IMG/VR virus record: IMGVR_UViG_3300021962_000114
Location: 1 to 59,940 of that record
Strand: one strand, 5' to 3'
DNA length: 59,940 nucleotides
Source of the DNA: a virus
Of this stretch, positions 19,301-39,709 are shown one piece after another. Each line of letters begins with the position of its first letter. Position 1 is the first letter of the stretch. Under the pieces are notes generated by a model that was not told where the DNA came from, searched no databases, and was given only the letters and a program-made list of their open reading frames with translations. The position numbers and the translations under genes are program-made.

Positions 19301-20380
19301 ACCAAACTTGGCATTAATCGAGCCATTGAACTTCAATTCAGATGAATCATATGCAAAAATTGGTTCAAACAAGTTTTTGCTTTCGCCAGCATCACGGCTG
19401 AATGTATAGCCTGACAAGTTACTAACATCATCAACTGCATCACTCAAGAACACAAATGGCCAATTAACTTGTCCGTTGGTTTCTGTGATAGATGCCGTCA
19501 GATACGAGCCAGAGTTTGCTGGCCAGCTACGAACATTTCCAGAATAAGTACCGTTGATTGTAGGAGCAATAGAATATGTTTGTTGTGACAAAGCACTACC
19601 ACTGAAATATACAGTTCCTTGTGGAATAAACTTTTGTACATCAAACCAAGCAATTGCATAATCAGAGCCACCATTAATTTTTGTAACTTTCTTACCGTCG
19701 GCAACAACAGATGCACTGAATGCTCCGTATGCATTTGCGGTGGTAATATTGACCAACTTACGAGCCTTGAGTGCATTTCCAAGAGAAGAACTCAAACTGT
19801 TAATATTTGGCAAGTATGAGTATGATCCGATAAAGCTAAGAACTTGTGCCTTGGTGGTCAAACTAACAGATGCACTAATACCCGCCGCATCGGTTGTTGG
19901 AATACCATTGACAGCATCGCCAGGCACTTCCCAACCAGAACTGCTGTGAACATATTGAATGTTGGAAGTATAGCTATCGCTATTCAAATACATGAACGAA
20001 CCAGTGGTCAAAGCACCAATATCGTTGGTGCGATCCCAATAACCTGGTTGTGCATATACAACCAGCGGATTCTTTTGCCAATAACCAGTCAAACCACCAA
20101 CACGAACGATGGTTACGATACCTTGTTGAACTAGGTATTCTTTGGCAGTGTAGGGACCGTAGTAGACACCATCAGCAATGCCGAAGCGTTGTTCAAGTGT
20201 AGCTACGTCGGTGATAATGTTAGGAAAGAATGCAGGACCGTCCGCAAATGGAGCGACGATTGCACCTCCGATGTTGGCTACGCCTTGAGCGAGCCCCGAT
20301 AGATCATTTTCTCTGGTGAAGACACCAGGACTTACGATAGTTTGTTCTGGACTCCAGCGTCCACCTTCTTGTATTGGCAT
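16397..20380 (-). CDS. 18: Tail sheath protein (T4 gp18-like), double length
   Basis: Contractile outer tail sheath. The N-terminus has the sheath family layout (SPGVFTRENDLSG, GGAIVAPFADGP, VATLEQRFG, YTAKEYLVQQG, TIVRVGG). The C-terminal quarter has the conserved contraction core, with INLIVLPGIF, VLPAVYAANDNAAAEWYAPAGLNRGG, QERDVLYENRVNPIAAFPGQGIVVWGQKTL, NVRRLLINLKKFI and a final RTAEFIMLDFNILPTGASF strand. T4 gp18 has 659 residues; this has 1327, so some 650 residues are inserted between the N- and C-terminal parts, presumably surface-exposed beta-rich domains. GAAAGGAA is a good ribosome site. The tail tube gene (gp19), normally next to it, is not seen here; a plus-strand adhesin follows instead. 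Confidence 0.94.
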   Translation of the reverse strand: MPIQEGGRWSPEQTIVSPGVFTRENDLSGLAQGVANIGGAIVAPFADGPAFFPNIITDVATLEQRFGIADGVYYGPYTAKEYLVQQGIVTIVRVGGLTGYWQKNPLVVYAQPGYWDRTNDIGALTTGSFMYLNSDSYTSNIQYVHSSSGWEVPGDAVNGIPTTDAAGISASVSLTTKAQVLSFIGSYSYLPNINSLSSSLGNALKARKLVNITTANAYGAFSASVVADGKKVTKINGGSDYAIAWFDVQKFIPQGTVYFSGSALSQQTYSIAPTINGTYSGNVRSWPANSGSYLTASITETNGQVNWPFVFLSDAVDDVSNLSGYTFSRDAGESKNLFEPIFAYDSSELKFNGSINAKFGAAKLTSNYPAKYAGTGSLSGSQLYGGKQVSLGVVSTPKRLIRKFSGVSLPNDASGWFYLTSSAQGTQTTEETQISTAINESSETNWLLSSSVLNTGTNTGQIDLDYDKDTFDATGDLVVHSASFATVRSAATCGAALRFIGIVSGKYGPFNGSFIATGSGGSDPCNPNPDSRKNMVLAVLANTQNASTQFDSNYTVNGFVDSVVAQLTSSVYPYKGQVNPNENQYQLALRYNFTDENGNNSSGTYGYYDFSLEENANNYIKEVFGMDPTVGNPAKQVQGQKIEAAYNYVLFEDSIKRFLAEKTRSGDEGGGWRIQVATAPSSGFSVGESMKFVDQYSYDPNTGDSQFAITNAKTPWIYSQAIAPFKGSATETANPTKFKLFKVHTLSDGTLANRKYKIEISNVKLSGTVPGSEWGSFTLAVRAYSDTDKRPKYLEIFQNLNLNPDSANFVARRIGDRYAYITFAGKIVEYGTYVNLSKYIRIEMTDLPYPVSVVPYGFEAYSTPVDGTLGNLLPAVRYSKASIYGLAPGKYPSGTVFGDPAEASEELAYLYPTSSFGVGVAIDTANWFKPLPYYGGNDQNGDNIDFDLEAKVWGYADASYYAQGVAASTGSILPPQLSGSIPSIYDPVNEPIYVRLRKFVVGFQGGFEGQWPAIPINVGSDITAGNTQGLDCTTIKSPGSIAYKQCIAALGNADEWDINLIVLPGIFCEQHSYVTNLTITMCETRGDCFYIMDNVVFPASNQSVGLIDAAINSVATIDSNYVATYYPWVKILDTNLNKIIPVPPSVVLPAVYAANDNAAAEWYAPAGLNRGGIPQAVQVLDRLTHQERDVLYENRVNPIAAFPGQGIVVWGQKTLQINPSALDRVNVRRLLINLKKFIASSSNYLVFEQNVAATRNRFLAIVNPYLESVQQRNGIYAYQVKMDAENNTPDLIDRNILYGQIYIQPTRTAEFIMLDFNILPTGASFSA

Positions 20381-25681: not shown

Positions 25682-28246
25682 TTAGGTATCCCATTTCACT
25701 ACAATATTGATTGGAATTTGACCAGTGTTTTTGATAGGATTTGCGATTTTGCCAATTGCCACCAAATCGGCATTGGCATACAAACCTACTTGAGTAATAT
25801 ATGGTGCCAAATACGAACCGGTCGGGTCCATAGACGCACTCAACTGATAGGAAAAGAATTCAGCTTTAATGTCATTGCCGGTACCTTTACCAGTATTTAC
25901 GTCCAAGAATTTGATGATGTCATCGTAGTTGTTGCGACGGCAGATTGGAGTCAAATACTGTTTATAATTGGTAACTTGTAGATTTTGAATGTAATAATTC
26001 CAGATCAAATATGCATCTGAATAATCCACAATACCATCCTTGTTTACGTCAAAATCCTTGGTGGCCAATTCACAGCGAAGTTCTGGAGTCAAACGATTGT
26101 TGGTATAATCATATACAGATGATGTAAAGAAGCTGAACATACTTTGTTGTACATCTCCTTCAACCAACACATTCCACCAAGATTCACGATGTGGAGCAGT
26201 AAGCTTGTAGTTGATGTATCTCAAAATAATGTCAAGATTGCTAAAATCAAAAGTAGCCTTGTTGATAATACCATAAGAAAATGCAGATCCCGTGATAGCA
26301 GTAGGATTGGTAGACACATTGAACTCACCTGGTTCGACAGTGCAAATATATTGCTTTTCGTTGAGTGTAATTTGACTATCATATGTGCCAAACACATAAT
26401 CATTCAAAGGATTCAGAGGATCTCGCAACAAATCTCTAAGAACACTACCAGTGTTGTTCACAACCAACCTATCGTTGTTGTAAAACACATTACCAACAAC
26501 TGCATCTTTTTGCAAGTCAGCAAAATCATAGATAAACGCTTGACCAAATACATCAACAACTGGTTGTTCCAAAACATACACAATGCTACCAGAGCTTTGA
26601 GCATTCATGTTATTGCCAGAACAGTCGCAGATTGCATCTTCCATTCTGAGTTGCACAATTGCTTGGTCAGCACCGCCACACTCAATCGGAAAGCTACCGC
26701 TTTGCTCTGCCAAAATAGGAGCTTGTAAATACAAGTCGTCGTTCAAAATTGCTGGCGAACCAATGACCAAGTTATCATTAGAGATTGCCACGCTAGATCC
26801 AAACGCAGTAAAGCATTCACCAATACGTTTTCTGTATGCAATTGGTGCGGATGTAGCAAGTTCAAACAATGCCGATCCAGAACATGGATTTGCCTTCCAT
26901 CTGTACAACAGTGCTTGACCGTTGTAGGTACTTGTACCAAAGTCGTTGTCTTGAAAATTTGTGTTGTACTGATTTATTGATGCAGACAGATAAAGGCTTG
27001 AAAATGGAAAGTATGGTTTTGGAGATCCTACCAAAATATACTTGTCGGTCATATCCACACTATATCCCAACATGTTGTCTTTGAATGTGGTTGTGTCTCC
27101 GTAAAATTTCTTTTGTAGAGTATATGCTCCAGATCCAGAAGATTGATAGTAGAAATAGAAAGCTCCACGTTGACGAACTGTTTGTGATCCACTATATTCC
27201 AAATACACAAGATCGTTTGGTGCGCCAACAACGAGTCCATTTTCATTCAATGCTACAGAATATCCGTATCTGGATTGTGAGTAACTCTGAGACAGTGGAT
27301 AAAACCCAACGCTAGAATCACCAGAAACAGTCAGCCACTTTGATGCTGTATTTTGCTGCAATGTTTGTAGAAATGTCCAACTATTTTGATCAGACGCCAG
27401 TTGATACACATACACCAAACTTTGTGTGGTAGACAACGTACCCACAGCAATTCTGTTTTGCGCAACCTTGTCGATTGCCACAGCAGATCCAAAAAACTTT
27501 TGTCCGTTATCACCACTCGTCAAAGTCGAATGTAGTGAGTACCCACAGTCGTCGGATTTTTCATACACATATACAGCACCTTTTCCACTGTTTGCTAATG
27601 GCGCACCCACCAACAAAAAATTGTTAGAAACCGCAATAGCTTTTCCAAACTGTTGCGAAGCTGATCCAGTGATGCTGCAAAATGGTCGTGAAGGCAAAAC
27701 AAATTCAGTGGTGTCTGCATCAGCACAGCTTGACGAATTGTTTGTGTCGTACATTCGATATACATCTACAGACGCAAATGCCAAAATGTTACCAGCAAGA
27801 CTTTCACTAAACGCCATGTCTCCAACTGCCATGTATTTGTCGCACATAGCAACAGAACGACCATAACCATTTTGCAAAATTATTGATGTGCCATCTTCCA
27901 ACACATAAAAACTACAGGTTGTAAATCCATGATCTGCGGATTCAAAATACAAACTACCGCTTTCTTCAGTGATCAAAGACGCTGTGCGTGATGCACTAGA
28001 ACTTTGCTCGGTAAAATATGTGTTTACAAATCCAAAATCCGATGCCACACTCTTACGATATGTTTTGACAAACGAGTAGTTGGTGGTGAACTGATTTTTA
28101 CGATATACCAACACTTCACCAAGGCGAGCATAACCTTCTTGGCACGTATATGGCTTTGAATTAGGATTACCCACAGCAACGTAGGTTCCATTTGTAGCCA
28201 CTTGGTATCCAAAATTCTCGTTATAGATGTTCAGCAGATTTGACAT
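25682..28246 (-). CDS. FG-GAP (integrin-like) beta-propeller adhesin with dockerin-like Ca-binding loop
   Basis: 854 residues. Seven FG-GAP-type repeats, each opening FG/YG-x-[SA]-V/I-A and continuing to a V-G-x-P-like turn, start near residues 12, 127, 200, 252, 327, 393 and 482; seven blades make a closed propeller like the integrin alpha head. At 733-744 DVNKDGIVDYSD is an EF-hand-type loop as in dockerin repeats. The C-terminus (VGLYANADLVAIGKIANPI) matches the C-terminus of the tail protein at 37897-39012, so this protein probably attaches to the tail in the same way. The likely role is receptor binding, with calcium dependence inferred from the loop. It lies downstream of a glycosyltransferase block. 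Confidence 0.85.
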   Translation of the reverse strand: MSNLLNIYNENFGYQVATNGTYVAVGNPNSKPYTCQEGYARLGEVLVYRKNQFTTNYSFVKTYRKSVASDFGFVNTYFTEQSSSASRTASLITEESGSLYFESADHGFTTCSFYVLEDGTSIILQNGYGRSVAMCDKYMAVGDMAFSESLAGNILAFASVDVYRMYDTNNSSSCADADTTEFVLPSRPFCSITGSASQQFGKAIAVSNNFLLVGAPLANSGKGAVYVYEKSDDCGYSLHSTLTSGDNGQKFFGSAVAIDKVAQNRIAVGTLSTTQSLVYVYQLASDQNSWTFLQTLQQNTASKWLTVSGDSSVGFYPLSQSYSQSRYGYSVALNENGLVVGAPNDLVYLEYSGSQTVRQRGAFYFYYQSSGSGAYTLQKKFYGDTTTFKDNMLGYSVDMTDKYILVGSPKPYFPFSSLYLSASINQYNTNFQDNDFGTSTYNGQALLYRWKANPCSGSALFELATSAPIAYRKRIGECFTAFGSSVAISNDNLVIGSPAILNDDLYLQAPILAEQSGSFPIECGGADQAIVQLRMEDAICDCSGNNMNAQSSGSIVYVLEQPVVDVFGQAFIYDFADLQKDAVVGNVFYNNDRLVVNNTGSVLRDLLRDPLNPLNDYVFGTYDSQITLNEKQYICTVEPGEFNVSTNPTAITGSAFSYGIINKATFDFSNLDIILRYINYKLTAPHRESWWNVLVEGDVQQSMFSFFTSSVYDYTNNRLTPELRCELATKDFDVNKDGIVDYSDAYLIWNYYIQNLQVTNYKQYLTPICRRNNYDDIIKFLDVNTGKGTGNDIKAEFFSYQLSASMDPTGSYLAPYITQVGLYANADLVAIGKIANPIKNTGQIPINIVVKWDT

Positions 28247-28259: not shown

Positions 28260-28297
28260 TGATCAAAACCAAATATTTTGCAAAAGAATCACACTAA

Positions 28298-29995
28298 CTA
28301 GCCTGCATTTTCTTTTCGCTCTTCTGGTTTGTAGTATACAATTCTGTTATGATTGATTGGACTAGCCAACAGAACTGCTGGTTTTAGGTTGCCTTTGCGT
28401 GTTTCTTGGAACATATAGCTCATCCAAGTTTGTTCGTATGGATATGCCCATGTAGTATCCAAAAACATCTTTTTGTTTCCTTGTTTACCCACAATCATAG
28501 GCCAGTTTGCATAATAAATATCACCCTTGATATAGCTCAATCCATCCACAACCTCAATCGTATCAAATTTGGTTCTTGGGCAGTTAGGGTCCAAACCCGA
28601 CACTGGCAATTTGGTATAATGTGGCCAAACTTCGGCTCGCACAGTTTTTGGTACATTATACCAAGAAACTTGTATGTTGTTATCCATATAAACTTCTGTA
28701 TACGAGAACTTCAAAAAGTCCACATTAACGTCGCCGCCAATGATTTTCAATACCTTGTCATACAGATCTGGAACGTATGTTCTGAATCCATTTCTACAAA
28801 AATTGTTGACGGGTTCGTGTATGCCCATATCATCTTCCAGAAACACGTAATAGTCGCTGTCAGATTCTTGGAAATGTTGTGCTACTTGGAATCTGCCACC
28901 GTTGATGCCCAAATTCTTGTTGTTAATAATATGTTCAAAATTGTACTTTTTGCAAAGCTCGGCATTGGCTAATCTAGCATCTTCGTTGGTGGAATTGTCA
29001 ATCAGAATATTTCTGGTATGAGTCAACCATTTAGGATGTTTCAGCCAAGTTTGAATTGTATGTTCGACTTGTTGAGGAAAATTGAAAGTCAACATATACA
29101 CGGATACTTTCAATTTGTTTGGGTCAACATATTTTCTTGGTATGTATACGTTGATGTCTTGTGGAATTGGCTCAAGCACAACCTTGTCGTCGAGCAGAGC
29201 TTGAGCAAACTTAACAATAAGCCCGTTTGAGTCCAGTGAATAGCGTCTGTATTTTTCTGGCTCCAAATAAGACATGATGGTGAATACACTTTCTTCGGTA
29301 CCCATATAACCATCACTGAGAGTTCGATCCAATAGTGAGTAGTATGTGGCATTGGCTTGGTTGATAGATTCTTTATTACCACCAAACAATCCACCCCTAC
29401 AAACATATTCTACTTTCTTGCCACTGTATTTGTTTATTGCAGCAAAGTCAAAACCATGAATTTCATTTGAAGCCTCATATGGATAGCTCAAAAACAAAAA
29501 ATCGCTAAGGTGCGGTAAGATTTTATCCAACGCACGATTTTCAGTAAAGTATTTTTCGTATACTGTATTTGTAATGCCAGCGTCCAACCATATGAAATGT
29601 TTGGTATTGAATGGATTCCAGATAGTAACATCATTCAACAAAAACATTTTTGATTGCACAATTGGATTATACCATTCTTGCGCTGCTTGAGGCGATGACG
29701 AAAGCCAGCCTGCTTTATTGATCCATGCTGGATCTGTTCGTATCTTTTGTGTTTTATCCCAAAAAGGGCTGTACATGCGTTTCACATCATCCAGTTCATA
29801 CACTTTGACGTATGTGTTTTTTGATGTGCGTTTTGCCCATACCAAATGCTCCAGTTCTTTTGGTAGATACAAAAACAAGTTTGCATCAATATCCAAAAGC
29901 TTGTTCAAGTTTTCAATATAGTGATCAAATGACCTACCAACTCTGTTGATATTCCACAAACCAGTGACCACCGTCAAATCAGACATGTTACTCAT
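28298..29995 (-). CDS. Two-domain glycosyltransferase (HtrL/YibB-like plus GT2-like)
   Basis: 565 residues with two sugar-transferase-like halves. The N-terminal half (1-~290) begins LTVVTGLWNINRVGRSFDHYIENLNKLL and contains KHFIWLDAGIT and CRGGLFGGNKESI, the layout of the HtrL/WlaTC family. The C-terminal half (from about 305) starts KVSVYMLTFNFPQQVEHTI, typical of GT-A family 2 enzymes, and has FLEDDMGIH as its metal-binding acidic motif. The substrate cannot be told. It ends the block of sugar-transfer genes and starts 4 nt after the preceding gene. Cytoplasmic: no membrane segment visible. Confidence 0.8.
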   Translation of the reverse strand: MSNMSDLTVVTGLWNINRVGRSFDHYIENLNKLLDIDANLFLYLPKELEHLVWAKRTSKNTYVKVYELDDVKRMYSPFWDKTQKIRTDPAWINKAGWLSSSPQAAQEWYNPIVQSKMFLLNDVTIWNPFNTKHFIWLDAGITNTVYEKYFTENRALDKILPHLSDFLFLSYPYEASNEIHGFDFAAINKYSGKKVEYVCRGGLFGGNKESINQANATYYSLLDRTLSDGYMGTEESVFTIMSYLEPEKYRRYSLDSNGLIVKFAQALLDDKVVLEPIPQDINVYIPRKYVDPNKLKVSVYMLTFNFPQQVEHTIQTWLKHPKWLTHTRNILIDNSTNEDARLANAELCKKYNFEHIINNKNLGINGGRFQVAQHFQESDSDYYVFLEDDMGIHEPVNNFCRNGFRTYVPDLYDKVLKIIGGDVNVDFLKFSYTEVYMDNNIQVSWYNVPKTVRAEVWPHYTKLPVSGLDPNCPRTKFDTIEVVDGLSYIKGDIYYANWPMIVGKQGNKKMFLDTTWAYPYEQTWMSYMFQETRKGNLKPAVLLASPINHNRIVYYKPEERKENAG

Positions 29996-29999
29996 AATC

Positions 30000-30824
30000 T
30001 TATTTCAAATAACCCAATTGGTAAAACTTCATGTGACCATCATCGACTCTTTCTTGACGATACAAGTTACATCCTTCATTGCTATCATGTCGTGTGTGTG
30101 CCAGCACCGGAAATGTGGTTACTCCTCCAAATGTTTGCCAATCCTCCAATGAGTGTAGCTGTTTTTCAAATTCATACACCGCTACCATTTTTTTGATTTG
30201 GTTTTTTGTCAAATATGCCGATACCGTTATATCGTCGTTCCAACTTCCAAGATTGATAAACTCAAAAAAATCTTCGCCAAAATAACTGCGTTTGTAAGAA
30301 ACAGTTTTGTAGTGTTGCAGAACGTTTACAAATATGTTGTGTGTGACTGACACTACATAATGGTCCCTTTTATCGCCTCGCAATCTTGCAACGTCTTCTG
30401 GTGTTTCACGCTCGGCACGTAGTCCATCATAACCAATTGCTGTATTTGTGTGCAAGCCTTGATTTTTGACATGTTCCTGCAACATCTTAGGATGATACAC
30501 CAAGTCATCGTCGCAAACTACAATAATAGAGCTTGGGTCAGATTCTCTTTGCAATGTGTAAAATAGCTTGGTCAATGTTCCCTTGTCCTCCAAACCCTCA
30601 AACAATTTCAGCTTTGGATTAGTGATCGACAGAGTTCGAAGCCAATCTGGAACAACATACAATTCTTGTGTTTTATGATTGCGAGTCGGTATATTGAAAT
30701 GTACTTCATAGTCTCCAACATAATCTTGATTTACAAGAGATTCAATGCATCGTCGAATATCGTGATTGTGCGATTCCGAATTCAGACGAGATGGCACAGT
30801 GGTGAGTGTTATTATAACTTTCAT
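30000..30824 (-). CDS. GT-A-fold glycosyltransferase
   Basis: 274 residues. Starts MKVIITLTTVPSR, a typical opening of GT-A enzymes of the kind that modify lipopolysaccharide or proteins, with RRCIESLVNQDY helix following. The metal/nucleotide-sugar motif is VVCDDDLVYHP (about 101-111). A later GEDFFEF...NDDITVSAYL segment supplies the possible catalytic acid residues of the acceptor side. Donor and acceptor are unknown. It lies in a tight run of sugar-transfer genes (6 nt after the preceding gene, 4 nt before the next). Confidence 0.8.
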   Translation of the reverse strand: MKVIITLTTVPSRLNSESHNHDIRRCIESLVNQDYVGDYEVHFNIPTRNHKTQELYVVPDWLRTLSITNPKLKLFEGLEDKGTLTKLFYTLQRESDPSSIIVVCDDDLVYHPKMLQEHVKNQGLHTNTAIGYDGLRAERETPEDVARLRGDKRDHYVVSVTHNIFVNVLQHYKTVSYKRSYFGEDFFEFINLGSWNDDITVSAYLTKNQIKKMVAVYEFEKQLHSLEDWQTFGGVTTFPVLAHTRHDSNEGCNLYRQERVDDGHMKFYQLGYLK

Positions 30825-30829
30825 AATGA

Positions 30830-31855
30830 TTAGCTACCAAGATAAGTATAAACGTGTGTGTCTGTTATGTCCTCAACTGGCAAATGTTGAGCATAGTAAT
30901 TTCTAAGCTGTTGCTTGTTGTTTTGTATAAATTTTGATATTGATGTCACATCGCTATAGTCAAATGAAAAATGCGCCCAAACTTCTCTATACCCGCAGCT
31001 ATAGAAAGTGTCTTCGGGTCTGGTTTTGTGTATCATAGCCAAACCATAATTTTTCAAGTACGTAAAATCTTGAGCAGCTTTATATTGATAGTTCAAATTG
31101 ATAGACAGCAGATCGTATGTTGCTGGGTATACCCATGTAAAGTTATGATAGTATGTACTACCAAACAAACTCGTTTCATTTTTTATGAATGCTTGAATGA
31201 TCATAGTATTCATCAAATTATACGCCAGCATCAAATCGTCAGAACTACGAAAATGACCGCCATAAATAAAACCGTCATCGTTTCTAAACTGCAACTTAGA
31301 AGAATCAAAATCGAGCGTAGGAAACAATGGCATAACTGCGTTGTTCAAAAAGTTTGAAACCAACCCTGCCAATTCCGAAGATTTTTCAAATTTTCCTTGT
31401 TCCCACCCATAAACAGTCCCAGAAGGAATGTTATCAAAAAAATCAGCGATACAATTGTGGTTATTTCTGATAACCATATCTGTATCACAAACAACAAAAT
31501 TCAAAATGTTTCGATTCGCAAAATGTTTGAATACATACCTTTGCAAGAAAAATGGATATTGACGTTCGACAATATTGTAAAACTTTCTATGCCTCAGAAA
31601 GTATTCTTGATCAGTCGGCACTTCCAGACATACTTCGTTGTTTAGACTCACAACATCGTCTTTTCTCAGATCATCAATCGCAACAAACTCAAAATGATCA
31701 TGATAATCTTTGTAAAGGTCGTAGTAATATTGAGTGGTAAATATTACAATATACGCTTTGGTTATAGATGGACACGACTTTAGCAATAAATCGAAACGAT
31801 ATCGCATATGCGTACCAAAACAAAACATCGCTATTTTAGGAGCACCAACACTCAT
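30830..31855 (-). CDS. Glycosyltransferase-like protein with DTD motif
   Basis: 341 residues. After a short lead-in, KIAMFCFGTHMRYRFDLLLKSC starts an alpha/beta fold, and NFVVCDTDMVIRNNHN (about 118-133) gives a D-x-D motif as in GT8/GT6-type retaining transferases. GGHFRSSDDLMLAYNLM resembles the acceptor-side segment of such enzymes. The family is not certain. ATGA overlap with the methyltransferase gene shows that they are translated together. Confidence 0.7.
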   Translation of the reverse strand: MSVGAPKIAMFCFGTHMRYRFDLLLKSCPSITKAYIVIFTTQYYYDLYKDYHDHFEFVAIDDLRKDDVVSLNNEVCLEVPTDQEYFLRHRKFYNIVERQYPFFLQRYVFKHFANRNILNFVVCDTDMVIRNNHNCIADFFDNIPSGTVYGWEQGKFEKSSELAGLVSNFLNNAVMPLFPTLDFDSSKLQFRNDDGFIYGGHFRSSDDLMLAYNLMNTMIIQAFIKNETSLFGSTYYHNFTWVYPATYDLLSINLNYQYKAAQDFTYLKNYGLAMIHKTRPEDTFYSCGYREVWAHFSFDYSDVTSISKFIQNNKQQLRNYYAQHLPVEDITDTHVYTYLGS

Positions 31856-32550
31856 ACTGAATTAATAAATACTGACTGCCTACCATTCATGATTTTTACA
31901 TAACCATTTTGCAAAAGGTATGGTGCCAATATTTTGTCTTTACCACCCACTGATTCAACAAAGTCTGTGTCGTCAATAGATATCAGATGTACAGGCGCAA
32001 GTTTATCCTTTGCAGCCAGATACGCTTCTAGATGCTTCTCGGCATATAACGAAGTACCAACATCCCACCCATCCAAGTACAAAAAGTCAATTTGCTTATT
32101 GAAACTCTTGAGAAACTCAATTCCACATTGTGGTATATGGATGTGCAAATTACTTGGTATTTCTTGTTTAATGTGATATTTGTATTGATTCTCAAGTTGT
32201 GTTTTACAGTGAGTATCAATATCTACGGTGTATACCTCAAATCCTTCTTTAGCCCAAAAATATGTTGAGTGACCATCTTGACAACAAGGTGGTGCCTCAC
32301 ATTCTTTCATGACATTTGAGTGATCATAATAGTTAATACAGCCTTGTGTTGTTTCGTGGCGAGTAGACCCAATTTCAACAATCACTTTGGCGTCTAGTGT
32401 TTTCAACAACTCAATAGTCTTTTTGATCCATTTTGCGGGATAGCTTCTCAAGCTATTTTCAAAAGGCTCCAAGCGTATGCGATCCCAGTAAATAACGTCT
32501 GGATTAAAGCTTTTTGCGGACTCAATTACTTGTAAATATTTATCGTTCAT
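31852..32550 (-). CDS. SAM-dependent methyltransferase-like protein
   Basis: 232 residues from the ATG at 32550, which overlaps the stop of the upstream gene (ATGA). It has a Rossmann-type class I methyltransferase core: VIVEIGSTRHETTQG (motif I, about 56-70), VYTVDIDTH (motif II acidic residue) and IDFLYLDGWD (motif IV-like). The group resembles sugar or small-molecule O-methyltransferases found in surface polysaccharide clusters. CCQDGH and other Cys/His residues in the middle are of unknown use. Substrate probably a sugar, inferred only from neighbouring transferase genes. Confidence 0.75.
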   Translation of the reverse strand: MNDKYLQVIESAKSFNPDVIYWDRIRLEPFENSLRSYPAKWIKKTIELLKTLDAKVIVEIGSTRHETTQGCINYYDHSNVMKECEAPPCCQDGHSTYFWAKEGFEVYTVDIDTHCKTQLENQYKYHIKQEIPSNLHIHIPQCGIEFLKSFNKQIDFLYLDGWDVGTSLYAEKHLEAYLAAKDKLAPVHLISIDDTDFVESVGGKDKILAPYLLQNGYVKIMNGRQSVFINSV

Positions 32551-35162
32551 AGTTTGATTTCCACTCGCTCTGCCCATCCTCGGGTTGGACTAACTGCCCA
32601 ATACACAACTCGTACAGGCCAAACATCTGTAAGGAAATACTCCTCATAGTGAATGTTGCCCTTGTTTTGCAAAAAGTCAGATAGTTGTTTTCCGACAATA
32701 TGTGTGCTAAATACAGCTTGACCTTGAGCGTCATCAAACGCAACCAAGATGCTGTTGTAATCATCACCTGGTAATTGCTGACGAGTGATGTTTACAAGAT
32801 GGTAGAATGACTTTTTGAGCGAAGCTTTCCACTCTTGCTCCGACATTGGTGGATTTGGTGGTACACCATTGTTCATTGTATAGGGTTGCACTGACTTTTC
32901 TTTGAAACAAATACCAGCATACAACTCATAGTCATGCAACGACCTCTCCGTACCTAGATCATATCCAGTTAAATCATAGCCGTTATATTCGGTCTGAAGT
33001 AGTTGACGAATTTTGGCTCTGGACTTTGATTGTAGATCATTCCAATTTTCTCCACGTTTGGATTGGTCGTCCCAAACAAGAATACCATCTCGTTCTTTTC
33101 TTGCCATGGAATGCCAGATGATCACTTTGTTTGGGTGATAGATGTCGTAGCCGTGAGTGAATGATCGAACCGTAAGATTGATTTCCTCGCCACTGAAAAA
33201 GATATCCGAATCATGTTTGATAGTTTTTGCCCAGTGATTGTCACCAAAGCAGAAGTGTCCAGACAAAAATCGGCCTGGAACGGGTTTCGACAAATCCGCT
33301 GAACTGTTGAACCCACCTGGTCTGATGAAAATGGTACCATGTGGATAAAAACACGACATGATCGACTGCCAAGGTTCTTTGGTTCTTGATTTTGGATCGT
33401 CGGCGGGATCATAAAATGGTAGATATCCAGCCAGCAATGGCTTTTTAACTCCACTTGCTTTTAATCCATCATGCATTTCAATCAGTGTAGCATCCCACTT
33501 TTCTGCAAATCTGTGATGACTATCTAGCTGCAAAATATACTCTTCATTCAACAACATGGTATTGATTTGATATCTTGCAAATGGAAGACCTTTGGCAGCA
33601 GTATAATCCATTTCAATAATTCTGAACCTAGGATCATTACGATACTTGTCCAGATCTTTTGCAAATTTATCGGCTTTATTGAATTGATGACATACACCAA
33701 ATATCAATCTTTCTGGATGTGCTGCATTTTTCAAAGCACTTTCAATTGTAGGCAACAACTCTGGATCTCGGTATGCTGGCAAATGCACAAAGATTTTCCG
33801 TTTGTTTGGATCAGTATTGATCACTACTTTTTCGTCACGTTGCTTTTTGTATTTTTTGCTGTGTTTCCACAAACTTTCTGGGTCTGGTGAGCGAGGAACT
33901 GGTTTGGTTGGTGCAGGTATATAACGCTCAATTTTTTCCATCCAACCTTTAGATTTGCTGTGAGGCCAAAACACATAGGTATGCGGAACTTCTTTAGTAT
34001 GAAACGCTCTCCAGATTCTATGCCATTTGTCAGCAGGCTTCGAATTCTTGTAAGTGTTTACTTCTTTTTCGTCGGCATCACACCGTACAATCTCTACACC
34101 CTCTCGGTTTTTGAATGCAATGATCCAAGCATCATAGTCATTTTCTGGCACACTATCGTCGTGCATATCAATACAAAACTTGAAAATATGTAGCCAAGAT
34201 TTGTCATACTCAACTGGATCTGTGATTCCTGGATTTGGAGCAATCTTTTGATCCAATGTATATTGCTGAACTGCTCGGTCGCTAAACCTCACGCCAGCAA
34301 ACTTTTCATAGTCTTGTAGAGTTCTGACTTTGCCAAAATCATATACTCCAAAGTCGATGTTTTTGGTTTCTCCATCCATACCAAACAACTTGCGAGTGCG
34401 CAGATGTGATGACGCATTTCTGGTTGCCCAAATTTTGTCGTCGTCCCATTGCTTGACAGAACCATTTCGATGATAATAATGCCAAGCTATTACTTTGTGT
34501 GGGTGAAACAAATCATATCCGTGTGTGTACGCACGAACTGCCATGTTTATTTCTTCGCCGTGAAAGTAAAGATTTGGATCATACAAAACCTCTTTCACAA
34601 ACGAACCTTCTGCAAATGCAAAATGACCACTGAAAAATCTTGCTGGCACTGGCAAGTCCAAGTTTTGATACCCAGGTATAGTTGAGGGCACTGGAAATAT
34701 TGGTCCCTCTGGCAGGTAACGATCAAAGCAAATCATCCAAGGCTCGGTTACTCTGGCTTTTGGATCGTTTTGGGGTTCGTAAGAAGACAGATATGCCGTC
34801 AACACTGGCTTTTTATAGCCAACTGCCTTCAAGTCCTTCAACATTGTGATGGCTTGTTCATCCCAGTCTTGGTCAAATCTATGATGACTGTCCAATTGCA
34901 AACAATACTCTTCGCCAGAATACAACAGATTTAACTGATGCCGCACCCAGCATACACCTTGGCTTTGCTGGTATGGAATGTCTATGATTTTGAATCGTGG
35001 ATCTGTGTCGTAACCACCCAGAGTTTCTTTTTCATCGTGTTGCCAAGCAATAGCAAACACCAAATTTTCTGGATGCTTTGCTTTGGCTATACAATCATTG
35101 ATTGTCGGAATCAATTCTGAGTCTCTATAGCTCGCAATTTGAACAAATATTTTGGCATTCAT
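32547..35162 (-). CDS. Tandem GlcNAc-transferase-like enzyme (PF11397/Skp1-type), two copies fused
   Basis: 871 residues made of two homologous GT-A modules. Module 1 starts KIFVQIASYRDSELIPTI and has LQLDSHHRFDQDWD (about 88-101); module 2, from about residue 440, starts KIFVHLPAYRDPELLPTI and has LQLDSHHRFAEKWD. Each repeats a FSGHF.F motif, then FHGEEINM/FFSGEEINL with GYDLFHP/GYDIYHP, the conserved features of the family that includes the Dictyostelium Skp1 GlcNAc-transferase, which modifies hydroxyproline on a protein. After each module a C2-like or small beta domain follows (about 320-400 and 775-871). This family acts on protein acceptors, so the Thr/Pro/Ser-rich fibres encoded nearby are candidate targets. 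No membrane segment. Confidence 0.85.
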   Translation of the reverse strand: MNAKIFVQIASYRDSELIPTINDCIAKAKHPENLVFAIAWQHDEKETLGGYDTDPRFKIIDIPYQQSQGVCWVRHQLNLLYSGEEYCLQLDSHHRFDQDWDEQAITMLKDLKAVGYKKPVLTAYLSSYEPQNDPKARVTEPWMICFDRYLPEGPIFPVPSTIPGYQNLDLPVPARFFSGHFAFAEGSFVKEVLYDPNLYFHGEEINMAVRAYTHGYDLFHPHKVIAWHYYHRNGSVKQWDDDKIWATRNASSHLRTRKLFGMDGETKNIDFGVYDFGKVRTLQDYEKFAGVRFSDRAVQQYTLDQKIAPNPGITDPVEYDKSWLHIFKFCIDMHDDSVPENDYDAWIIAFKNREGVEIVRCDADEKEVNTYKNSKPADKWHRIWRAFHTKEVPHTYVFWPHSKSKGWMEKIERYIPAPTKPVPRSPDPESLWKHSKKYKKQRDEKVVINTDPNKRKIFVHLPAYRDPELLPTIESALKNAAHPERLIFGVCHQFNKADKFAKDLDKYRNDPRFRIIEMDYTAAKGLPFARYQINTMLLNEEYILQLDSHHRFAEKWDATLIEMHDGLKASGVKKPLLAGYLPFYDPADDPKSRTKEPWQSIMSCFYPHGTIFIRPGGFNSSADLSKPVPGRFLSGHFCFGDNHWAKTIKHDSDIFFSGEEINLTVRSFTHGYDIYHPNKVIIWHSMARKERDGILVWDDQSKRGENWNDLQSKSRAKIRQLLQTEYNGYDLTGYDLGTERSLHDYELYAGICFKEKSVQPYTMNNGVPPNPPMSEQEWKASLKKSFYHLVNITRQQLPGDDYNSILVAFDDAQGQAVFSTHIVGKQLSDFLQNKGNIHYEEYFLTDVWPVRVVYWAVSPTRGWAERVEIKL

Positions 35163-35217
35163 AACAGGTATACGGACACAAATAACTAGTTATCAAAACG
35201 CTCATACGCATATTCTA

Positions 35218-36054
35218 TTAGTAGTTTGTAAACGCCGACATATTATAAACAGTAAGTCCAGACGAGACACCTGCCAAATCACTCATTGCAACGTCTATTT
35301 CGGGTATGTACTTGTATATCGCAGAACACGTACCGATCTGATTTCCAGCAACTCTAAGTTCACCAGACGATGCGTAAAGCCCACCCATAAAAATCAACTC
35401 ACTAGTCACTCCATCATTTACAGGAACAAATACGGCATTACCTGAATCTCCGACGATTAATTGCTCTGAATTATTGAACCTTGCAGTATTGTATGAAAAT
35501 TGAAAATTAATCAAATTTCTAAGTGAGCAATCTACTTCTTGTCTTGTTAGTTTATTCAAATCACCACACAAAAACTTTTTCTGCTGATTCATATAAAACA
35601 TTGGCAAAACAGGGGATACCCACGGTCTACAAGGAAGATCCTCGGGGTTCACAGTTATGTTTTGCAAATAATTTTCAAATGATGGTGGAAATACTTTATA
35701 ATAGGCAAGCGACGAATCAACTGGTGTTGTAAAATATCCTACACTAATATCCGTATATCCAAAATCCGTACTAAGAGATGGTCCTATAGATTGTACAGAT
35801 TCTACCGAATACATAAACGTTGTGTTGTCATTGTTCACGTAGTAAATATTGTGACCTGGTGCTATACCAGTATGTGTGGCAAATATAAAATGTCGATCAC
35901 TGACAAGTGTTGCGCCAAAATAATTACCTGTACCATAAATCCACAAAGCTATACCTGTAGTGTCATACCCAACATCTGCCCTAACAATACAGTTGGTATT
36001 TCTGGCCCAGGTGTCAACGCCAGTTACGACGGCCATTACGTTTGTGTCGCTCAT
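35218..36054 (-). CDS. Trypsin-fold serine peptidase-like protein
   Basis: 278 residues without signal peptide. The chymotrypsin-like layout can be read: GATLVSDRHFIFATHTG with His61, then DFGYTDISVGYF with Asp102, then LIVGDSGNAVF with Ser204, which gives a complete candidate triad in the right order and with near-normal spacing. After the Ser, IFMGGLYASS matches the strand that lines the substrate pocket. The peptidase may trim a fibre, degrade a host surface protein or act in capsule penetration; this cannot be decided here. The gene overlaps the stop of the upstream TPS-stalk fibre gene (ATGA) and so is expressed with it. Confidence 0.78.
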   Translation of the reverse strand: MSDTNVMAVVTGVDTWARNTNCIVRADVGYDTTGIALWIYGTGNYFGATLVSDRHFIFATHTGIAPGHNIYYVNNDNTTFMYSVESVQSIGPSLSTDFGYTDISVGYFTTPVDSSLAYYKVFPPSFENYLQNITVNPEDLPCRPWVSPVLPMFYMNQQKKFLCGDLNKLTRQEVDCSLRNLINFQFSYNTARFNNSEQLIVGDSGNAVFVPVNDGVTSELIFMGGLYASSGELRVAGNQIGTCSAIYKYIPEIDVAMSDLAGVSSGLTVYNMSAFTNY

Positions 36055-37799
36055 AGATTAGAAATTAATGTATCAACTGTTCCTCCCACTGTCGAAGACA
36101 AATCACCGCCGCAAGGCGCACATGGGCTAACCTCACCAGATGACATCCACACACGATAAGGATCTGTCAGTGTACCAGAGCCACAAACCGGACTATAATC
36201 TCCGGTTGGATAAATTTGTGCCAAAAGGTTGCCAAACGATAGATTGTATGTGTGTGCTACATTTGGAGTACAACATCCGTCCACCGGTTCAGTCTGAAGA
36301 TGAGTTGCTGTAACCGTATATGTATTTGAATCGGTTGGTGAAAAACTATCCGTAAAATATCCGGAGGCAATTTTATTACCAGCACATCTCAATTTTTTTG
36401 CAGTAATTTCATCTCCAGTTGGAGACGTAAAACTTGTGTTGTTACATGCTGTATATACAAATACTCCACTTGTATTGCTGTCACCAGCACACGATGCGTT
36501 CACAGTCACAGTGCTATTACATTTCTGCGCCGGAGTCGGAACCGTTGTATAACAATCACATCCACCTGGTTTAGGATCTGGACATGCTGTTTTATTTGGT
36601 GGACTGCTTGGAGCAGGATATACAACAAAGTATACCACACCTGGTATAGGAGGACTGCTACTTGGAGTAGGCGTTGGGCTAGGGTCTGGTATTGGAGAAT
36701 TGCTTGGTGATGGTGCTGGAGAATTGCTTGGCGATGCCGCAGGCGAATTACTTGGTGATGGGGCGGGAGAATTACTTGGAGTTGCAAGAGGTGTTTGTGT
36801 CACGCTTGGAGTCACGGTCTCGCTCGGAGTCACACTAGGAGTAGCTGACACAGATGCATCAGGAGTACTGCTTGGAGTAGCACTAACGCTAGGGGTCGCA
36901 GTGGTACTAGGCGTTTTAGTAATACTTGGAGTTACTGTTGGTGTAGGCGACACTGAAGATGCTGGCGTACTACTTACACTAGGTGTTGGCGTTGGTGTGA
37001 TAGTCCTAGTAGGAGTCAGCGTAACGCTAGGAGTAATTGTGACACTAGGAGTAGGCGTCGGAGTTGGTGTAGGCGTTGGTGCCGGAGGAATATCACAACA
37101 AGGAGCTTCATAGGTTGGGTTTGAAAGATACGCACCCAAACCACAAATATTTACTGGATAAGTCAAATCATCCGAGTTTGCAACCAAAGGATATTTATTG
37201 ACAAAATAAGATCCAGACAGTTTCAAATTGTAGTTTCCATCATCAACGATGTCAGCAACCACATCACCGCTTTGATTGCTAATTACCACGGTGTTGGGTC
37301 TAATTTTATCACCTGTTTGGCTGATGCTCAATTGCAACAATGAAAACTCATTGGTCAAATGCAAAGATGCTTTGCTGGTATCATACTCATCAAAACCAAA
37401 AATGTTGTAGGCATTATTGTAGTTATTGTAGTACATGTTGAAGACAGTATTGTAAACCTGTCTTTGATATGTACCGTCCAAATTCATTGGATTGGATTCT
37501 TGACTCCAACCCGCACTTCCGCTTGGATAAAAAACTGAACTAGATGGAACGTATTTTCCAATTTCAAAATCAATCACATTTTCAAACTGCGATATTGCCA
37601 AGTAACCGCTAACATCCTCTGATGGAGAACAGCTACCAGATACATTGTCGTTGCACTGTGTAGTGTCTGCCGTCAATGGAAAAATGTCGTCACCGTCATT
37701 AGCAGCGATCAGATCATTCAATACACTGTTGACCGTTTGTGGCTTTGCAATCGTAAACGGCGTTATAATGATGTCTTGATTTTTGAAAAATTTGATCAT
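36051..37799 (-). CDS. Tail fibre-like protein with Thr-Pro-Ser stalk
   Basis: 582 residues from the ATG at 37799. An N-terminal domain (1-~235) ends in a conserved-looking Cys-rich EAPCCDIPPAPT. Then follows a mucin-like stalk (about 236-385) of TPTP, TPSV and SNSPAPSP units, and a C-terminal Cys-rich beta domain (about 390-582) with many CXXC-type pairs (CDCY, CCTP, CAPC) that probably form disulfides or bind metal. The stalk is the same sort as in the plus-strand adhesin 20 kb away. Likely a host-binding fibre. The next gene encodes a trypsin-fold protein. The start is set by a CTATTTATA motif 5 nt upstream; an ATG-less extension to 37832 is unlikely. Confidence 0.8.
   Translation of the reverse strand: MIKFFKNQDIIITPFTIAKPQTVNSVLNDLIAANDGDDIFPLTADTTQCNDNVSGSCSPSEDVSGYLAISQFENVIDFEIGKYVPSSSVFYPSGSAGWSQESNPMNLDGTYQRQVYNTVFNMYYNNYNNAYNIFGFDEYDTSKASLHLTNEFSLLQLSISQTGDKIRPNTVVISNQSGDVVADIVDDGNYNLKLSGSYFVNKYPLVANSDDLTYPVNICGLGAYLSNPTYEAPCCDIPPAPTPTPTPTPTPSVTITPSVTLTPTRTITPTPTPSVSSTPASSVSPTPTVTPSITKTPSTTATPSVSATPSSTPDASVSATPSVTPSETVTPSVTQTPLATPSNSPAPSPSNSPAASPSNSPAPSPSNSPIPDPSPTPTPSSSPPIPGVVYFVVYPAPSSPPNKTACPDPKPGGCDCYTTVPTPAQKCNSTVTVNASCAGDSNTSGVFVYTACNNTSFTSPTGDEITAKKLRCAGNKIASGYFTDSFSPTDSNTYTVTATHLQTEPVDGCCTPNVAHTYNLSFGNLLAQIYPTGDYSPVCGSGTLTDPYRVWMSSGEVSPCAPCGGDLSSTVGGTVDTLISNL
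36650..37090 (-). repeat. Degenerate TPS/SNSPAPSP-coding repeat, fibre stalk
   Basis: Short repeats encoding T-P-S-V-[TS] and S-N-S-P-A-P-S-P units on the minus strand. GGAGTCACACTAGGAGT at 36826-36842 is the exact reverse complement of 15393-15409. Confidence 0.85.
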
Positions 37800-37804
37800 C
37801 CTAG

Positions 37805-37813
37805 TATAAATAG
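37805..37813 (-). promoter_or_regulatory. TATTTATA promoter motif, 5 nt before ATG
   Basis: The coding strand reads CTATTTATA, CTAGG, then the ATG at 37799. It lies directly downstream of a hairpin terminator. Confidence 0.5.
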
Positions 37814-37839
37814 GGATATTTGTGGAATCCAATAAACTA

Positions 37840-37896: not shown

Positions 37897-39012
37897 TCAG
37901 AAATCGATACGTACCTTGATCAATAGTTCGCTGTCAAAGCTCTTTTGAACTGGACGACTTACTTTACCGATAGCCAATAGCTCGTTGTCGGAATTGTACA
38001 AACCAACACTGGTAATATAAGTGCGTGGATTGTTGATCAAATCTTGATAGATGATCGTTCCTTTGGTCAATCCATCTGTACCGTTTGATACAAACGTAGG
38101 ATTATTGGTGTAGTTGAATTCCTTGTTCTTTACACGCACAAAGTAGTTGGTGCTAGGAACAAATTCGCTCTTTCTGACCGCCATTGGCTTGGTGCTGCGT
38201 TGCAAACGATAATAGAAATCATGTGCCCAAACACGCCAATAGTTTTGAAATGCTGGTGCATATGGACTTTCGCAGTTTGAGGTACCAGCACGATCCAACA
38301 AATAATTGCCAGACGTAATACCAACACGCTTTTCTAGGTTAATTGCGTTAAACACGACTACGCCGTTTGAAGGATAAAACAAACCAATACCTTCATATAC
38401 TGGACTACCGTTTTTGTAGTATGGTGTAGGAACACCAGCAATCACAGATCCAGAAATAATGTTGTAAACGTTTTGTTGCTTGTTTACGATAGACGAATCA
38501 TCAATATAGCTGTATTGGCCGTTGGTGCCCATGAAGTTGATCTGAATTTGACCTGGGTCAATTTGATCCTTCATTTTATCAGCCGAAAAATTCATCACAA
38601 AAATAGCTTCGCTGTCTTGTGGTGTAGACACGCTACCAGATGCAAACGAAAACAAGTTGTCGCCGGGTTGCAACAAAATGTTTTTGTATTGCGAGTACAT
38701 CACCTTGGTTTCGTTGGTCAATACTTGGCTACCAGGGTTGATAGATGTACAGTCATAGTATGAGCTACCACTGTTTGCATAGTCACCATATGCAATTGCA
38801 AAGTATTCTTCGCCGCCTGCATAGATGTTGGTGTAATATTGACCATTGCGAACATCCCAGTTGCTTGAACCAATCATGGTGTTTGCTTGTGCAGATGATG
38901 TCACAAAGAATGATTGACTCAAATACAAACTACCAGTGCCGAACAAACCAGAAGATACTTGGTTTATTCTACCCACTACGATGTCGTCTGCTGTGAATTT
39001 ACTAAAAATCAT
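37897..39012 (-). CDS. Tail structural protein, conserved T4-like family
   Basis: 371 residues, beta-rich and rich in Ser, Gly, Asn and Tyr. The C-terminal 40 residues (TSVGLYNSDNELLAIGKVSRPVQK) are the conserved end that I recall from a virion protein found in T4-like aquatic phages, and the same end recurs in the FG-GAP adhesin at 25682-28246. It follows the MAYLDN-type gene by 9 nt, so they form an operon. A baseplate or tail-fibre attachment role fits the context. Confidence 0.82.
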   Translation of the reverse strand: MIFSKFTADDIVVGRINQVSSGLFGTGSLYLSQSFFVTSSAQANTMIGSSNWDVRNGQYYTNIYAGGEEYFAIAYGDYANSGSSYYDCTSINPGSQVLTNETKVMYSQYKNILLQPGDNLFSFASGSVSTPQDSEAIFVMNFSADKMKDQIDPGQIQINFMGTNGQYSYIDDSSIVNKQQNVYNIISGSVIAGVPTPYYKNGSPVYEGIGLFYPSNGVVVFNAINLEKRVGITSGNYLLDRAGTSNCESPYAPAFQNYWRVWAHDFYYRLQRSTKPMAVRKSEFVPSTNYFVRVKNKEFNYTNNPTFVSNGTDGLTKGTIIYQDLINNPRTYITSVGLYNSDNELLAIGKVSRPVQKSFDSELLIKVRIDF

Positions 39013-39021
39013 AGATTATCT

Positions 39022-39663
39022 TTAGGTTGTTGTAGGAACTTTTACCGTCACTGTGATTGACGTATTACCACCGCTTTCATTTCCAATAATGGTAATGTTT
39101 GTGGTGGTGGTTTTTGCCAACGAAGCATTTGGAACAAATCTAAACTTGTTACCAACCACAACTTGCGATGTCTGTGAAGTCAAATCTCCAGCAAACGTCG
39201 GAACGGTTGCGGTAGTCGAATTCAAGCTATTTGTTTCGGTCACAATCAAAGTACCAACGCTCTTGTTTGAAAGAATTGCTGTGTATCCCAATGTGACATT
39301 GTAGGTTGGGTTGGTGCTTGGACTGATAGAAATGTCTCCAGTATAATCTCGGTCAATAGTAATGACGCTTTGAGCAACGCTGATGGTAGGTACCATAGTA
39401 ACACCTTCATTGAGTGTCACCAACTTATACTTCATTAGCTGACTTTCGTCGGTGATAGGTTCCATGACTGGCGTGTTTCTTAGAGCAATGTCATAGTACG
39501 CACTACCAAGAGGGTGTGTTGGATTGAACTGTGTATAGTCAATTTCATCGTCCGCCAATGCAAACGCTGTGATATTCAATCCTCCCGTTTTTGCAAGAAT
39601 CTGACGACCTTTCTGCGTCAAAACAGCGTTGATTGTGATTACATTGTTGTCTAAGTATGCCAT
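39022..39663 (-). CDS. Conserved tail protein (MAYLDN family) with BACON/Ig-like tail
   Basis: 213 residues from the ATG at 39663 (an in-frame TTG two codons earlier is less likely). The first 75 residues (MAYLDNNVITINAVLTQKGRQIL, FALADDEIDYTQFNPTHPLGSAYYDIAL) form a block seen in many T4-like aquatic phages as a virion protein of unsettled role. The rest is a Thr/Ser-rich beta domain typical of Ig-like adhesion modules. Lies between a very large tail protein and another tail protein. Confidence 0.82.
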   Translation of the reverse strand: MAYLDNNVITINAVLTQKGRQILAKTGGLNITAFALADDEIDYTQFNPTHPLGSAYYDIALRNTPVMEPITDESQLMKYKLVTLNEGVTMVPTISVAQSVITIDRDYTGDISISPSTNPTYNVTLGYTAILSNKSVGTLIVTETNSLNSTTATVPTFAGDLTSQTSQVVVGNKFRFVPNASLAKTTTTNITIIGNESGGNTSITVTVKVPTTT

Positions 39664-39709
39664 ATACAAATAATTATCAAACTAATTTGGTTTTCAATCA
39701 AAGAATATG

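Follow-up and report, generated by a model that had tools for sequence, protein, structure and literature searches.

A swappable block of putative protein-glycosylation genes beside a mucin-like stalk gene in a T4-like myovirus

Introduction

What do phage-encoded sugar-transfer enzymes act on when their genes lie next to the gene for a mucin-like stalk? The question is raised by the IMG/VR virus record IMGVR_UViG_3300021962_000114, of which positions 1 to 59,940 (the whole stretch of 59,940 nucleotides, hereafter the window) were analyzed. The window is a contig of a T4-like myovirus (gp23, gp20, terminase, sheath, gp6, and gp25 were found), and phages of its type are probably jumbo phages, since the contig of a near relative, L129/G051, has 303 kb. 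It encodes two proteins rich in Thr, Ser, and Pro (TPS) and a minus-strand block of enzyme genes, among them a tandem glycosyltransferase (GT) of the GT60 family. An earlier note on this DNA had proposed that the phage glycosylates its own fibres. We infer that the block probably constitutes a cytoplasmic mucin-type O-glycosylation pathway for the phage's own stalks, because stalk and enzymes are gained and lost together at the locus, isolated phages used as a control agree, the GT60 model resembles the polypeptide N-acetylgalactosaminyltransferases (ppGalNAc-transferases), and enzyme type matches stalk composition. On the same grounds the core of the earlier proposal is well supported. The features on which the argument depends are the following:

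14322 to 16286, plus strand: stalk 1, with an N-terminal peptide, two TPS-rich segments, and a LamG/ConA-like C-terminal domain
36051 to 37799, minus strand: stalk 2, with a conserved head (residues 1-236), a TPS-rich mucin-like stalk, and a variable tip of about 190 aa
28278 to 37150, minus strand: block swappable in comparison with the stalk-less close relative L129 (blastn homology ends at 37151 and resumes at 28277)
32547 to 35162, minus strand: tandem GT60 (PF11397) enzyme, polypeptide N-acetylglucosaminyltransferase-like (Pfam, 1.6e-126)

Results

The stalk proteins

The window proteome contained 352 20-residue segments with at least 60% Thr, Pro, or Ser, whereas 200 shuffles gave at most 15, which places the enrichment far above chance. 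The two Ser/Thr/Pro-rich proteins of the earlier note were confirmed. In stalk 2 the TPS segment spans approximately residues 228-393 (nt 36621-37118; 166 TPS-dense residues), and within its open reading frame, 36051-37832, the ATG at 37799 was judged the most likely start, as the earlier note had it. Stalk 1 has two such segments, nt 14463-14843 and 15222-15554, with 238 TPS-dense residues. The two stalks had been described as flanking the enzyme block. This holds for stalk 2, which adjoins it, but not for stalk 1, which lies 12 kb away on the opposite strand, with the sheath, SbcCD, primase, and FG-GAP genes in between.

The head of stalk 2 is orthologous to proteins of 207-248 aa in 62 stalk-less relatives, where the head is the entire protein. 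The tips of the stalk-bearing relatives share mostly 25-48% identity where they can be aligned. An AlphaFold2 (AF2) model of the head, built on 24 sequences, reached a mean predicted local distance difference test (pLDDT) of only 34, and we therefore make no claim on where the stalk attaches to the virion. The C-terminal domain of stalk 1 matched PF13385 below the cut-off (E 0.00045). Its homologue, with 78% identity over 247 aa, was found in the stalk-bearing G062 and has a Thr-Pro (TP) segment of its own.

Co-occurrence of stalk and enzyme genes

Eighty loci were anchored on the conserved gene 39022-39669, and the insertion site could be read in 70 of them. All eight readable loci with a TPS stalk (L123, L125-L128, L131, L156, and L170) also had enzyme genes inserted behind the stalk gene, and the other 62 had neither (Fisher test approximately 1e-10, calculated by hand with kinship ignored). 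Outside the 70, L121 has a second TPS stalk before its contig ends, and several stalk-bearing contigs stop inside or just past the stalk.

The stalk state, mapped on a tree built from two backbone proteins, switched five times, in all bootstraps, and tree neighbours were found in opposite states: L170 has stalk and enzymes and L146 has neither, and L156 stands in the same way against L163-L167. In the clade of the window, L129 has an extension that is not TPS-rich and lacks the enzymes, which ties the enzymes to the TPS stalk and not just to a longer protein. The exchange itself could be seen when the record of L146 (as L212) was compared with L008, which is the same phage as L170: one 9.3-kb block stands against 62 bp, between flanks that are 80-82% identical.

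Clean single-block breakpoints between conserved flanks would also be expected if stalk and enzymes formed a recombination module kept together by linkage and end homology, without functional coupling, and phage tail-fibre regions are recombination hot spots. We give this explanation very little credence. The enzyme sets of the different inserts are unrelated, yet every enzyme with a nameable family modifies sugar or proline, stalk 1 lies at a distance from the block, the TP proteins of the isolates XacN1 and RAS14 described below are scattered over the genome and are missing from 11 relatives, and the Ser content of the stalk tracks the enzyme type.

Two side observations concern the same loci. 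Contigs L121, L122, L124, L130, L132, L154, and L160 end within or right after the TP repeat, and since many metagenome contigs break there, short-read assemblies may hide such stalks and their neighbours. In the stalk-less L105-L120, the SbcCD and sheath orthologues are separated by several additional genes, where the window has none; these are possibly an alternative fibre locus.

Isolated jumbo phages

As IMG/VR gave only one relative of the XacN1 lineage, the genomes of isolates served as the control. Among approximately 50,000 phage records searched with the GT60 gene, only XacN1, RAS14, and CM1 matched at the search threshold. These three had 43, 52, and 52 matches to the pattern TPxxTPxxTP, respectively, and 11 related jumbo phages without GT60 had none; as RAS14 and CM1 are near copies, the comparison is effectively one of two against eleven. 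The TP-rich proteins of the isolates are not gathered at one locus, and in XacN1 (at least 14 proteins) and RAS14 they are spread over the genome.

At least two glycoproteins were found by proteomics in the XacN1 virion, for which the authors suggested the phage's own transferases ORF328 and ORF334 (PMC5852040). We found ORF334 to be the GT60 homologue. No tail fibres were observed in XacN1 (PMC5852040). Beyond XacN1, the open papers searched yielded nothing on TP-rich or mucin-like phage proteins, a weak absence given that scope.

The GT60 enzyme

The 871-aa product of 32547-35162 matched PF11397 in four stretches that make up two modules (422.9 bits against a cut-off of 21), an N module (33915-35162) and a C module (approximately 32550-33833). 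The QLDSHHRF motif, which contains DxH, is intact in both, and DSHHRF is invariant across 22 aligned modules. The earlier description of two GlcNAc-transferase-like modules in one chain was therefore correct. The known GT60 members include the mucin GlcNAc-transferase of Trypanosoma cruzi and the Skp1 hydroxyproline GlcNAc-transferase (PMC9472816, PMC6939170), and the family is grouped with GT27, DxH replacing DxD in both (PMC7185993).

The N module was modelled with AF2 from an alignment of the window and related loci, without XacN1 and RAS14 (pLDDT 94.5, predicted TM-score 0.88). When the model was compared with the PDB, the first 29 entries were all ppGalNAc-transferases, with Z scores of 19.6-23.0 (best match: 277 residues, 3.2 A). 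The next chain had a Z score of 18.1, polysaccharide synthases followed at approximately 17 and TarP at approximately 16. In its modelled N module, the window GT60 is shaped like the animal ppGalNAc-transferases that initiate mucin-type glycans.

Enzyme sets and stalk composition

The inserts are not copies of one cassette. Tandem GT60 enzymes occur in the window, L005-L008, and L128, and single ones in G015, L125, and L127, where they branch elsewhere in the GT60 tree, alongside bacterial sequences. G033, whose stalk is almost pure Thr-Pro, has no GT60; beside its stalk lie a GT with a DXD sugar-binding region (PF04488, 1e-14; GT32-like) and a prolyl-hydroxylase-like 2-oxoglutarate (2OG)-Fe(II) oxygenase (PF13640, 3e-15). 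The GT60 records G010 and G007 have a PF13640 gene as well; the window and most relatives, among them many fragmentary ones, lack it. Further block enzymes are GT4-like, GT25, and GT11 (fucosyltransferase-like) enzymes, a carbamoyltransferase, and FkbM-, TylF-, or CmcI-like methyltransferases.

The composition of the stalks, expressed as the share of Ser in Ser+Thr within the dense stalk segments, followed these differences. It amounted to 0.39-0.63 in phages with the tandem GT60 (both window stalks, L006, L007, L008, and L128), to 0.15, 0.21, and 0.22 in L009, L010, and XacN1, which have a single GT60, and to 0.03-0.10 in the G015-type and G033 stalks (exact rank test p 0.002, with relatedness ignored and L011 left out). 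By its backbone L128 belongs to the G015-type clade, yet it has the tandem enzyme and a Ser-rich stalk, so that Ser content goes with the enzyme and not with the backbone. As the match was spotted post hoc, we put it forward as a hypothesis that the second GT60 module may serve Ser.

Two Pro-rich repeats were also recorded. At L101:10018-11426 (G033), the PF13640 oxygenase and a second small oxygenase-like protein adjoin the nearly pure (TP)n stalk, and phage hydroxyproline glycosylation is possible there. L011:18124-20139 contains a long extensin/collagen-like PPSPPSPPGPP repeat, with a PF13640 oxygenase in the same phage record.

Other genes of the block

The remaining genes of the block and its borders are the following:

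28298 to 29995, minus strand: fusion of an HtrL_YibB domain (PF09612, 6.7e-15) and a GT2-like domain
30000 to 30824, minus strand: GT2-like glycosyltransferase, a weak match (PF00535, E 0.0008, below the Pfam cut-off)
30830 to 31855, minus strand: putative transferase of unassigned family (DTDM motif; label inferred)
31852 to 32577, minus strand: methyltransferase-like protein by its motifs (phrog_24975, 1.6e-11, a PHROG without function; no Pfam match)
35218 to 36054, minus strand: protein between stalk 2 and GT60 with a trypsin-like GDSGN motif, read by eye from the translation
37897 to 39669, minus strand: conserved backbone genes (37897-39012 and 39022-39669) that serve as the anchor and lie outside the system
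25682 to 28246, minus strand: FG-GAP repeat protein (PF14312, 2e-26), a backbone gene that bounds the other side of the block and lies outside the system

The FG-GAP gene directly follows the head gene in the stalk-less relatives. A homologue of the HtrL-GT2 fusion lies close to GT60 in 14 of 14 viral GT60 loci, in XacN1 and RAS14, and in 8 of 76 bacterial GT60 loci; the GT2-like half was matched at E 0.009, below the Pfam cut-off. Homologues of 30000-30824 were found in L008, L017, and L018. The product of 30830-31855 had no Pfam, PHROG, or PDB match and has a homologue in L008; as regards 31852-32577, the blocks of related phages hold recognised methyltransferases. The earlier assignment of three sugar-transfer enzymes and a methyltransferase beside GT60 consequently stands for the HtrL_YibB match, while the GT2 matches fall below the cut-off and the last two genes are without a family match. 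For 35218-36054, no match was obtained in Pfam, PHROG, or the PDB and none in the readable blocks of relatives. The protein has plausible His and Asp partners for GDSGN and could, judging from its translation, be a stalk-processing protease.

Some of these genes would suit a different target. The GT25 and GT2 members of the blocks resemble lipopolysaccharide (LPS) enzymes, the GT2 half of 28298-29995 weakly matches TarP in the PDB (E 0.001), and HtrL/YibB is found near LPS genes; the enzymes might accordingly act on glycans of the host surface (LPS, capsule, or wall polymer), e.g., to block superinfection, while the stalk merely shares the insertion site. This alternative, already named in the earlier note, is disfavoured and we consider it unlikely. 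The GT60 model is nearest to polypeptide transferases, and the presence of the enzymes follows the TP stalks both at the locus and in the complete genomes of isolates. Moreover, a clear membrane helix was found in none of the 29 block proteins tested (maximum 19-residue Kyte-Doolittle mean 1.69), and no flippase or lipid-carrier enzyme was among their family matches, although TarP-type enzymes are soluble, so that the absence of membrane helices is compatible with host modification of that type.

A further observation concerns the tail sheath protein (window 16397-20380, 1327 aa), in which the sheath domain match covers the last 300 residues only. The remaining approximately 1000 N-terminal residues have no family assignment and are kept in relatives.

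Outgroup and bacterial GT60 loci

In the outgroup contigs G059, G060, and G083, GT60 adjoins Ser/Thr-rich fibre-like proteins (S+T approximately 24-31%), which by their composition would fit a fibre acceptor, though one different from the TP stalk. At L205:10979-14094, L206:10484-14627, and L207:5940-9340, in an outgroup without TP stalks, short single GT60 genes directly adjoin Ser/Thr-rich fibre-like proteins with SSSYALTSSY repeats. The Ser-rich fibre-like proteins of the outgroup had no PHROG match.

These neighbours also bear on whether the block glycosylates a different target, either another virion protein (capsid or sheath) or the phage DNA, for which mycobacteriophages and T4 offer precedents. 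Mycobacteriophages are known to have a glycosylated capsid and tail tube (Freeman et al. 2023, as related in PMC12619734), and the two XacN1 glycoproteins are unnamed in the main text (PMC5852040). Every relative has the capsid, sheath, and DNA genes, whereas the enzymes occur only with a TP stalk or with an outgroup Ser/Thr-rich fibre-like protein, which makes such a target very unlikely. DNA glycosylation by GT60 was rejected as a candidate, as GT60 enzymes are not known to act on DNA.

Bacterial GT60 genes (76 loci) sometimes lie beside TP-rich secreted or phage-tail-like proteins. A TPS-rich protein was found within approximately 10 kb in 12 of 38 bacterial GT60 loci and in 4 of 47 regions taken at random from the same genomes (p 0.007, non-independent). 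As several of the 12 share one Burkholderiales arrangement, the bacterial neighbourhood is taken as supporting evidence only. HtrL_YibB occurs in 7 of 38 GT60-bearing bacterial genomes, in one copy each, and this distribution supports the view that the GT60-HtrL pairing is old and extends outside phages.

Individual bacterial loci were also recorded. At L226:15078-17363, a VgrG (type VI secretion spike) with a PPPTEP-repeat tail lies approximately 4 kb from a Burkholderiales GT60 on the opposite strand, and similar opposite-strand TPS proteins occur in L231, L235, L238, L242, and L257 (only L226 was read); a secretion spike may be glycosylated too, to judge by this arrangement. On a large Jiulongibacter contig (L216:7942-15145), GT60 is accompanied by a second, diverged copy, by the HtrL-GT2 partner, and by a short TP-rich protein whose start is twin-arginine-like.

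Discussion

Several observations weigh against a stalk-specific glycosylation pathway. The number of independent state changes is small (approximately five), and many of the contigs are fragmentary or closely related to one another; since stalk and enzymes make up one contiguous block, part of their co-inheritance is plain linkage. TarS and TarP, whose acceptor is teichoic acid, also match the GT60 model, at lower rank, and because they share the GT-A fold, the fold alone is no proof of the acceptor. G033 has a TP stalk with other enzymes and no GT60, and the three outgroup contigs have GT60 and no TP stalk. Finally, L011, which has a single GT60, breaks the Ser rule (0.54), mostly because of its SPP repeat, and has a hydroxylase-like gene in the same record.

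With these points taken into account, a glycosylation pathway for the stalks is still the probable function of the block, and we infer its course as follows. The head, placed among the tail genes, would dock the stalk on the virion, and the stalk of 160-400 Thr/Ser/Pro-rich residues would bear a variable, presumably receptor-binding tip. During virion assembly or earlier, GT60 would add the first sugar, most likely alpha-GlcNAc from uridine diphosphate (UDP)-GlcNAc, to stalk Thr and Ser residues. This sugar would be lengthened by the HtrL-GT2 protein together with the remaining transferases, and in some relatives methyl-, carbamoyl-, or fucosyltransferases would cap the chain. The glycans might keep the disordered stalk extended and protease-resistant and alter its surface. 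The transfer, the sugar, its sites, the order of steps, and the benefit are thus all proposed. The variable tips and swapped enzyme sets would slightly favour diversification over shielding.

Among known systems, the window enzyme is alike in PF11397 and DxH to the GT60 alpha-GlcNAc-transferases TcOGNT of T. cruzi and Gnt1 of Dictyostelium/Toxoplasma, of which those from T. cruzi initiate O-glycosylation at Thr residues in mucin-like proteins (PMC9472816, PMC6939170, PMC7185993). The window enzyme differs from them in being phage-encoded, in the lack of a secretory pathway, and in having two modules per chain and an extra C-terminal domain. The GT27 ppGalNAc-transferases of animal mucin-type glycosylation, which act on similar Thr/Ser/Pro-rich acceptors, are the closest solved structures (Z approximately 20-23), but sequence identity is approximately 13%, no ricin-type lectin domain was seen in the window enzyme, and GT60 is classed as a GlcNAc-, not a GalNAc-transferase. 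The GT-A fold is shared with TarS and the phage-encoded TarP, and the GT2 half of 28298-29995 is weakly similar to TarP; these enzymes act on a wall polymer and are a poorer structural match to the GT60 module.

XacN1 has the same pair of GT60 and HtrL-GT2 along with its TP-rich proteins and reported virion glycoproteins, but its authors did not connect the enzyme to the TP-rich proteins and described the virion without tail fibres (PMC5852040). Mycobacteriophage glycosyltransferases likewise modify structural proteins of their own virion; according to the account in PMC12619734 of Freeman et al. (2023), the modified parts there are the C-termini of capsid and tail-tube subunits, and in the window they would be mucin-like stalks, with GT60 and a swappable stalk-enzyme block. 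Phage virion glycosylation is a known kind of system; what is new, to the extent of the sources searched, is its acceptor, its enzyme family, and the matched unit that can be swapped.

A wider generalization is tentative, and we consider it less likely than not: jumbo phages might exchange complete mucin-type pathways for their attachment stalks in which enzyme and stalk are matched, a single GT60 serving Thr stalks, a tandem GT60 serving Ser and Thr, and a prolyl hydroxylase with a transferase serving stalks of pure TP or SPP. This last, hydroxyproline version would parallel plant extensins and Skp1. Phage-encoded virion glycosylation is known from few phages, and the predictions made here are testable on the isolated XacN1, RAS14, and CM1, partly with deposited proteomic data. 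If the reading is true, mucin-type O-glycosylation would be present in phages and, given the bacterial GT60 loci, perhaps in bacteria; many unexplained phage glycosyltransferases would gain a target, and a soluble bacterial-type enzyme for mucin-type glycosylation would be at hand. For large phages, it would bear on how long disordered fibres are protected and how their surface is varied.

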